Positions 23,761 through 24,999 of a stretch of DNA of 37,372 nucleotides are shown here, piece after piece. The notes under the pieces were generated by a model. It was not told the DNA's origin and made no database searches. It worked only from the letters and a program-made list of their open reading frames with translations. The DNA comes from Candidatus Binatia bacterium (GTDB taxonomy: Bacteria; Desulfobacterota; Binatia; UBA12015): the NCBI GenBank assembly GCA_019749875.1, contig JAIEPK010000373.1:1-37372 (forward strand), written 5' to 3'. Within the stretch, counting starts at the first letter, position 1; each line of letters starts with the position of its first letter. The position numbers were made by a program, and so were the translations under genes.

Positions 23761-24177
23761 ATGAGCGCGGCCAGCAGGAAGCGGCGTGGTGAGGCAGGTG
23801 TGGGAATGTCGCGAACGAATCGGCGCGGAGGACGTGGGGCAGCGACGACGCCCAAGCGTCCGAGCGCTCGCGCGGCTCGTCTGACCGCACTGATCGCGGA
23901 GCTCGAGAATGCGGTCGAGGCACTCGGCATCCGCGTCCGGCGCGAGCGCTTGATCCGCGAAGTCGGCTACCATGCGCGCAGCGGGCTGTGTCGGGTGGGC
24001 GGCGAAGAGATTCTCTTCCTCGATCACGACCTCTTGCCGGACGACGAGATCGAGCTGCTTGCCGTGTTGCTGGCCGATCGCGATCTCTCCGCGGTCGAGA
24101 TGTCTCCGGAAGCCCTGCGATTGATCGCACGTGTGCCGCAGCCGGAGCATGTTGACAAAGCGGAGCCCCGCCCGTAA
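23761..24177 (+). CDS. Conserved hypothetical protein upstream of fur
   Basis: A protein of up to 138 residues. The first 35-40 residues are basic and low complexity. The conserved-looking part begins at about residue 40 (LTALIAELENAVEALGIRVRRERLIREVGYHARSG split over several strands) and includes LCRVGGEEILFLDHDLLPDDEIELLAVLLADRDL. There is no signal peptide or membrane segment. The ATG at 23806, preceded by GTGTGGGA, is a plausible alternative start giving 123 residues. The stop is 9 bases before fur, so the two are probably co-transcribed. I associate similar short proteins with deltaproteobacterial genomes from memory, but no function is known to me. Confidence 0.68.
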   Translation: MSAASRKRRGEAGVGMSRTNRRGGRGAATTPKRPSARAARLTALIAELENAVEALGIRVRRERLIREVGYHARSGLCRVGGEEILFLDHDLLPDDEIELLAVLLADRDLSAVEMSPEALRLIARVPQPEHVDKAEPRP

Positions 24178-24186
24178 CGCACGTCC

Positions 24187-24681
24187 ATGCTCTCGCGCGC
24201 GGAGCGTTTCGCCGCATTCCGCAAGGCGCTCAAGGACAAGAGCCTCAAGACGACGGCCCAGCGCGACGACATCGCGCATGTCTTCTTCGGCGGCCACCGT
24301 CACATGAGCATCGACGAGTTGTACCGCGAGGTACGCAAGATCAATCCCCGCGTCGGCTACGCGACCGTCTATCGAACGATCAAGCTCCTCAAGGAGTGTG
24401 GCCTCGCCGACGAACAGCACTTCGCCGATGGGCAGACGCGCTACGAGAATTCCGACGTCGGCGAGCAACACCATCACGATCATGTGATCTGTGATCGGTG
24501 CGGTCGAATCGTGGAGTTCTCGGACGACGATCTCGAGCGGCTCCAAGAGGACATCGCCACTCGCCTCGGCTTCGTCCTCGCCCGCCATCGCCTCGAGCTC
24601 TACGGAATCTGTCGGGACTGTCGCGAGGGGGTGCGCCCGACCGCGTCGACCGATCGCGTCGCGGTTCCATCGCGTCGCTGA
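24187..24681 (+). CDS. fur: Fur-family metal-dependent repressor
   Basis: A 164-residue Fur-family regulator that should use Fe2+ (or another divalent metal) as co-repressor. The winged helix occupies residues 15-85, with TTAQRDDIAHVFF and YATVYRTIKLLKECGLA as the typical recognition region. Metal ligands are visible: HHHDH at 95-99, C102 and C105 (ICDRCGR), and C142 and C145 (ICRDCRE), forming the structural zinc site and a regulatory site. Fur cannot be separated from Zur or PerR by these residues alone. However, a strong Fur box lies 93 bases after the stop, supporting an iron role. It follows the short hypothetical gene in an operon. Confidence 0.88.
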   Translation: MLSRAERFAAFRKALKDKSLKTTAQRDDIAHVFFGGHRHMSIDELYREVRKINPRVGYATVYRTIKLLKECGLADEQHFADGQTRYENSDVGEQHHHDHVICDRCGRIVEFSDDDLERLQEDIATRLGFVLARHRLELYGICRDCREGVRPTASTDRVAVPSRR

Positions 24682-24759: not shown

Positions 24760-24793
24760 TTGACATCACGAGTTGAAAATGATGTTCAATTTC
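24760..24793 (+). promoter_or_regulatory. Promoter with Fur box in front of the Com-like gene
   Basis: A perfect -35 TTGACA lies at 24760-24765. GAAAATGATGTTCAATTTC at 24775-24793 matches the 19-base E. coli Fur consensus at 14 positions, and its inner 7-1-7 dyad is TGAAAAT-G-ATGTTCA. TTCAAT at 24785-24790 can serve as -10 (19-base spacer). Transcription would start within a few bases of the ATG at 24799, so the mRNA may be leaderless. Confidence 0.6.
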
Positions 24794-24798
24794 ATCCC

Positions 24799-24999
24799 AT
24801 GAAGAAGGCGGACGAAGTTTCCGGGCCGGCGTCCGCCGAGCACCGATGCGTATGCGGCAGTCTGCTCGCACGTTTGCGGCCCGAAGGCGTCGAGTTGAAG
24901 TGCCGGCGCTGCAAGCGCGTGGTCTTGGTGCCGTGGTCGAGTGGATCTCGCTGGCACGGCATGAACGTCACCTGGGATGGTCCCGATCCCGAGGGTTGA
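24799..24999 (+). CDS. Com-like small zinc-finger protein
   Basis: A 66-residue protein with one zinc finger: C17 and C19 in HRCVCGSLL, then C35 and C38 in LKCRRCKRVVLV. The fold and spacing resemble the bacteriophage Mu Com translational activator family, which is also found on chromosomes as tiny 'Com family' proteins. Mu Com exposes the ribosome-binding site of the mom mRNA. The target here is unknown. No phage genes surround it. The ATG at 24799 lacks a ribosome-binding site, consistent with a leaderless transcript driven from the Fur-boxed promoter. The frame is open 13 codons upstream, but that would place the start inside the promoter. Confidence 0.75.
   Translation: MKKADEVSGPASAEHRCVCGSLLARLRPEGVELKCRRCKRVVLVPWSSGSRWHGMNVTWDGPDPEG

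Follow-up and report, generated by a model that had tools for sequence, protein, structure and literature searches.

A Fur-boxed, possibly leaderless gene for a Com-like zinc ribbon in Candidatus Binatia and a candidate RNA hairpin target ahead of iron genes

The small RNAs RyhB and PrrF are Fur-repressed regulators that act after transcription, and BglG and LicT, together with their RAT hairpins, are examples of protein-directed antitermination, in which one strand of a hairpin stabilised by a protein is also part of an intrinsic terminator. The translational regulator Com of phage Mu (Zn_ribbon_Com, PF10122; phrog_13819, gpCom, and phrog_6417, translational regulator) is a small zinc ribbon protein; phage com genes overlap or adjoin mom or methylase genes. 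SELEX with a Com zinc finger yielded the motif GAG(N)2CC, usually as two copies, and its authors proposed that CC(N)2-3GAG is located in a hairpin loop and that binding of Com opens the translation start of mom (PMC6483171).

Here, we describe a com-like gene of a Candidatus Binatia genome (G000, 7.78 Mb on 680 contigs), which is located in the window, that is, the whole stretch of 37,372 nucleotides that was analysed. The protein family encoded by this gene and its relatives has in common with phage Com the small zinc ribbon RC..C..LLAR....[VIL][EQ][IL]KC.RCK, the location of the gene directly upstream of a target, which is a proposed one for the com-like genes, and the proposed effect, by which the target is switched on. 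In contrast to phage Com, the family is chromosomal and Fur-controlled, with several proposed targets in trans and a proposed terminator switch. The com-like genes of relatives adjoin iron genes rather than mom or methylase genes, and the four-cysteine ribbon, with CxC as first knuckle, reads CxC...CxxC in all 40 com-like members, whereas it reads CxxC...CxxC in all seven phage Coms. As for BglG and LicT, a protein-stabilised hairpin would share a strand with an intrinsic terminator; however, the com-like case concerns a zinc ribbon protein, another hairpin, an iron regulon and an input by Fur. The Com-like protein would also form a second layer beneath Fur, as RyhB and PrrF do; however, these are RNAs that switch iron use off, whereas the Com-like regulator is a protein with the proposed role of turning on iron uptake.

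The features of the locus are listed in Table 1. The initial annotation had described a 19-base element matching the Fur consensus at 14 positions downstream of a perfect TTGACA, an ATG that lacks a ribosome-binding site and a location 93 bases after a fur gene, and all three readings were borne out: the box is identical to the Fur consensus GATAATGATAATCATTATC at 14 of 19 positions, it begins 93 nt after the fur stop codon, and the ATG is not preceded by a Shine-Dalgarno sequence, the use of which is mixed across the genes of the window. The box is the sole site with at least 13/19 identity to the consensus in the 37-kb window, and sites with at least 14/19 were absent from 50 first-order Markov simulations of the window. 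The listed open reading frame of the com-like gene opens at a TTG within the -35 hexamer; the ATG is likely the true start codon. With TTCAAT as -10 hexamer, the transcript is predicted to start at around 24797-24799, at the ATG or a few bases before it. The neighbours of the com-like gene in the window are fur and, judged by sequence, metG. The fur gene has a promoter of its own, consisting of TTGACA (24152-24157), a spacer of 17 nt and TAACGC (24175-24180), which is followed after 6 nt by the ATG at 24187 with no Shine-Dalgarno sequence; from this arrangement, fur also looks leaderless, and a near-identical fur promoter is present in a relative of the same genus (L037). The open reading frame upstream of fur (23761-24177, 138 aa) has no convincing family match.

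Table 1. Positions of the com-like gene, its putative promoter elements and the preceding fur gene in the window
Feature	Positions	Strand	Remarks
com-like gene, 66 aa	24799..24999	+	ATG at 24799, stop ends at 24999
Com-like protein core			RCxCGxLLAR...GVELKCRRCKR; proposed iron-responsive RNA-binding regulator
-35 hexamer TTGACA, perfect	24760..24765	+	Read from the sequence; kept in homologues
Fur box GAAAATGATGTTCAATTTC, 14/19	24775..24793	+	Boxes at the same position in homologues
Candidate -10 hexamer TTCAAT	24785..24790	+	Predicted by reading the sequence; 19-bp spacer
fur-family regulator gene	24187..24681	+	Start without Shine-Dalgarno sequence; Pfam FUR, E = 2.1e-35

Relatives of the com-like gene are found in Candidatus Binatia, where a profile search detected the gene in 47 of 148 genomes of the class, and, more distantly, in Nitrospirota, Myxococcota (Sorangium, Anaeromyxobacter, Kofleriaceae) and Rokubacteria. 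A Fur box was sought in 48 distinct loci with the protein core, up to 160 nt upstream of the first cysteine, and boxes with at least 13/19 identity were found in 26 of them, which supports control by Fur; the idea that the homologues carry such a box holds for these loci, but not for the other 22. In three of the unboxed loci, L045, L047 and L048, the com-like gene follows a fur gene having its own Fur box. The same-genus relative G001, whose com-like protein is 71% identical, keeps the gene without a box (11/19). As would be expected for a member of the Fur regulon, the box lies over the promoter and is conserved in relatives, although it has been lost in G001. The promoter spacing was analysed for 19 boxed Binatia loci; L025, which has a weak 13/19 box and no TTGACA, was not counted. 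An exact TTGACA is located 14-15 nt before the start of the box in 17 of these loci and 9 nt before it in two, and the distance from TTGACA to ATG is 38-41 nt in 13 loci, 32 nt in two and 49, 53 and 72 nt in one each, while one locus has no in-frame ATG. Because of the spacing of 38-41 nt in 13 of 19 loci, it is likely that the com-like mRNA is leaderless or nearly so, which supports a possibility already raised for the window gene. Furthermore, 14 of the 19 loci have an in-frame stop codon within the box; therefore, translation cannot begin upstream and the start codon is fixed. In six loci (L009, L012, L013, L035, L040 and L043), the site is the perfect 27-base palindrome TGAAATTGAAAATGATTTTCAATTTCA. 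A deletion of exactly 6 bp, equal to one hexamer step, shortens the palindromic Fur site in L014 and L041, the two loci in which TTGACA and ATG are 32 nt apart; judged by this spacing, their promoters are at odds with a leaderless start from that TTGACA.

Forty members of the protein family share the invariant residues C17, C19, G20, A24, E32, C35, R36, R37, C38 and R40, and their second knuckle is basic in every case (CRRC-x-R, preceded by K and mostly followed by K). The description of the product as Com-like holds for the family, but is weak for the window protein taken alone. At the family level, hhalign of the profile A1 against seven phage Coms gave a probability of 94% (E = 1.4e-7), and the Com profiles are the most widely matched PHROGs, with phrog_13819 matched by 36 and phrog_6417 by 34 of 40 members (best 3e-5); on these profile comparisons, the family is clearly a chromosomal, remote relative of phage Com. 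The window protein alone gave a weak match to the gpCom PHROG (E = 0.085) and no match to PF10122 of Pfam at E ≤ 1. PF10122 is matched by four of the 40 members, with a best E of 0.0015, which is below the curated Pfam cut-off, and a search of 21 genomes with this model gave no matches, its controls likewise matching nowhere. None of the 2.9 million viral contigs scanned yielded a member of the family, which supports the non-phage setting that had been noted. A plasmid search returned weak matches to three E. coli plasmid records, two of which are annotated as Com family, and tblastn of the member L049 against phages returned eight weak records, one of them a gpCom gene. NCBIfam yielded no convincing family for the protein; a copper metallothionein model gave one weak match (E = 0.005, one of 40 members). 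A sequence search of the PDB reached a best E of only 0.073. The AlphaFold model of the window protein has a mean pLDDT of 67.7, which corresponds to middling confidence, and Foldseek found no match to this model in the PDB at E ≤ 0.001.

A genome-wide search of G000 with the clade's own form of the Fur box, in which up to three mismatches were allowed, gave five matches at four places; the reversed sequence, used as control, gave none. Besides the com-like promoter of the window, these places are located between an imelysin gene and a gene for a secreted protein (contig C599), beside genes for a ferritin and a weakly ChuX/HutX-like protein (C632), and between a FecCD-type transporter and an operon for a secreted protein and FeoA (C619). 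Since the clade form stands at iron genes elsewhere in G000, the window box is of the kind that precedes iron genes in this genome. The blunt Fur consensus, also at up to three mismatches, had no match anywhere in G000. The secreted proteins share a TxYDxxLDGFPG-like motif (L103:2691-4310, L105:637-2388 and L177; own genome, C599 and C619) and sit behind Fur boxes or the RNA elements described below; in L117 and L118, proteins of a similar kind are encoded after com-like genes. Two members that were tested had no Pfam match, and the family is possibly a surface iron protein.

In the relatives, fur also adjoins the com-like gene in G001, G003, G010 and three Nitrospirota loci. Other neighbours are FeoA, FeoB, ferritin (on the other strand), TonB-dependent receptors, ApbE, FMN-binding proteins, cupredoxin and a porin-like protein barely recognised by Pfam. 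This porin-like outer-membrane protein recurs beside com-like genes or RNA elements (L007, L008, L009, L011, L015, L045, L057 and L166), has a coiled-coil-like start in several members and occurs with ApbE or FMN-binding proteins in Nitrospirota. An assignment of the porin-like gene as FeoE was considered and dropped, as FeoE is an iron efflux protein, in one account a CDF transporter, according to two articles (PMC7005843, PMC7762939).

Many loci share the sequence GGCCMGMGG-N5-10-CCCAGAGCCC downstream of the com-like stop codon. This element, whose two strands read GMGGCCMGMGG and CCCAGAGCC, takes the hairpin form GGCCMGMGGU-loop-ACCCAGAGCC and travels with most family members. Its 3' strand contains CCCAGAG, which fits CC(N)2GAG and thus the motif CC(N)2-3GAG given for phage Com in PMC6483171; this fit may be a lead toward binding. 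The exact pattern is present in 27 of 145 genomes of the class, 26 of which contain a com-like gene (com-plus genomes). A covariance model, R1, was built from 27 copies and trained on elements near com-like genes; L116 and L120, which are probable chance matches, and L129, which runs to the contig end, were left out. At E ≤ 0.05, R1 detects the element in 37 of 145 genomes, all of which belong to the 47 com-plus genomes, and in none of the 98 com-minus genomes (Fisher's test, 1e-25, a figure inflated by relatedness); ten com-plus genomes, including that of the window, have no element at this threshold. With a looser model, R2, com-minus genomes also show scattered matches with E above 0.01, and one com-minus genome, G072, has a match at E = 0.004. 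By hand count, 28 of the 51 R1 places lie within about 200 nt after a com-like gene, six at about 1.1 kb and 17 elsewhere. In an alignment of 47 copies, in which the own-genome copy L105 is misaligned, 98.4% of the cells of the hairpin are paired compared to 94.6% in shuffles, and 12 cells are compensatory, i.e. doubly changed, compared to 2.6 in shuffles; neither value was reached in 500 shuffles. The search for an RNA target, which the initial annotation had recommended, has thus produced a candidate in the form of a covarying hairpin, which R1 finds at E ≤ 0.05 only in com-plus genomes, but none beside the com-like gene of the window or elsewhere in the window.

The 3' strand of the element (AGAGCCC) doubles as 5' arm of an intrinsic terminator in 21 of the 46 copies examined, so that hairpin and terminator share a strand, as would be expected of an antiterminator; one of the 47 copies has no downstream sequence and was left out, and shuffled downstream sequence gave a mean of 2.6 and a maximum of 8. 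In five examples that were folded, the element and its downstream sequence form a terminator of -31 to -36 kcal/mol, compared to about -6 to -8 kcal/mol for the element alone; the terminator should therefore win without help. In several other leaders, as read by eye, the 3' strand could pair with the ribosome-binding site, for instance AACCC with GGAGGGUU in L011 and L021. Elements are placed either after com-like genes or after Fur boxes ahead of genes for porin-like, ExbB-like, TonB-receptor or secreted proteins, and at 10 of 18 element places inspected, near or away from a com-like gene, a Fur box of at least 13/19 lies within 100 nt upstream. The genes downstream encode porin-like proteins (L166, L167, L172 and L174), a TonB-receptor plug (L168), ExbB-like proteins (L133 and L170), TonB_C (L172) and a cupredoxin (L175). 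Among 30 porin loci, fetched out of 39 genomes with a match, the element is part of the leader in 11 of the 19 com-plus genomes and in none of the 11 com-minus genomes; the other eight com-plus leaders lack it, and at five of the 11 com-minus loci, a Fur box lies close to where the porin frame begins.

Outside Binatia, R1 matches com-like loci of Rokubacteria (L051 and L052), Myxococcota (L053 and L055) and Nitrospirota (L057); all of these but L052 were part of R1, and all five were found by the same pattern. The held-out Nitrospirota loci L045, L047, L048 and L049 score 18-19 bits (E 0.1-0.2), which is not significant on score alone. Read by eye, the first three of them share AAAGGCCAGAGGTCATT...CAGAACCCCGCG, located upstream of the porin-like gene in L045 and L047 and downstream of the cupredoxin gene in L048. 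In G000, R1 gives noise-level scores of 23.8 bits at C619:24369-24392 (E 0.65) and 18.5 bits at C619:17309-17340 (E 8.9). The latter copy lies just after the Fur box of C619 and before the genes for the secreted protein and FeoA, and a third copy, recognised by eye, follows the Fur box of C599 and precedes the gene for the similar secreted protein. R2 was built including the G000 copies and is hence no confirmation of them; what speaks for these copies is their position, not their score, and the candidate targets in this genome are weak and in trans.

We consider it probable that the com-like gene encodes a Fur-controlled zinc ribbon, made from a leaderless or nearly leaderless mRNA, which binds leader hairpins and activates genes for iron uptake. 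Under iron limitation, Fur would leave its box and the Com-like protein would be produced, which would then bind and stabilise the hairpin in leaders of transcripts for iron acquisition. One group of these leaders would be controlled by antitermination, as the stabilised hairpin would make its 3' strand unavailable as 5' arm of the terminator; in other leaders, it would probably keep this strand off the ribosome-binding site. The first target would be located directly downstream of the com-like gene in most relatives, where the gene precedes its own switch and would add a feed-forward step, whereas in the window's genome, the com-like gene is apart from its putative targets and would act in trans. 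The weakest links of this model are direct binding of RNA, which we infer with the covarying hairpin as candidate target, and the faintness of the elements in the window's own genome.

The element might also be a riboswitch or the site of another protein, with the com-like gene merely belonging to the same Fur regulon. Fur boxes precede elements and com-like genes alike, the element is short and well structured, and some com-plus genomes lack it at the R1 threshold; however, we regard this explanation as rather unlikely, as at that threshold the element is missing from all 98 com-minus genomes, even though a Fur box is present at five of 11 com-minus porin loci, and as the family is kin to an established RNA-binding regulator with a motif similar to the element. 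That the protein does not bind nucleic acids at all, but handles metal during iron starvation as a small rubredoxin-like protein or zinc chaperone, would agree with its four invariant cysteines, the iron loci all around and the single weak metallothionein match. The invariantly basic second knuckle and the wide matches to Com profiles argue against such a function, which would also leave the tie to the RNA element unexplained and which appears quite improbable to us.

The start of the com-like transcript could be questioned as well: the gene might not be leaderless and might mainly be expressed by readthrough from fur or from a start further upstream, the box being a product of decay or a side effect. 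Loci such as G001, which keeps the gene without the box, and L014 and L041 with their odd spacing would fit this scenario, as would the location of fur immediately ahead of the gene in the window and in a further six loci or genomes. The arrangement of TTGACA, box and ATG is, however, kept in 13 of the 19 boxed loci from Binatia, many of which are not beside fur, and we give this scenario a small chance. The reading that we prefer remains that of a Fur-controlled, Com-like RNA-binding protein.

The literature searches listed no paper dealing with a Com-like protein regulated by Fur or with the present RNA element, and the search of Rfam with 11 element loci found no matching family. It appears reasonably likely that bacteria from at least four phyla control part of their iron supply by a two-step switch, in which Fur controls a Com-like RNA-binding protein, which in turn would open RNA leaders with terminator or ribosome-site switches ahead of iron-uptake genes. 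If true, this would be a chromosomal Com regulon together with its RNA target family, neither of which was found in the literature searched or in Rfam. Studies of Com have dealt with a phage protein that activates a single gene, and an iron-controlled chromosomal branch with target hairpins of its own would show how a protein of this type serves a regulon. The many natural protein-RNA pairs may help to solve how Com-type ribbons read RNA, a question that PMC6483171 leaves open, as no structure of the complex was available. Taken together, the com-like genes would, if this reading is true, constitute an RNA layer beneath Fur in little-studied phyla.
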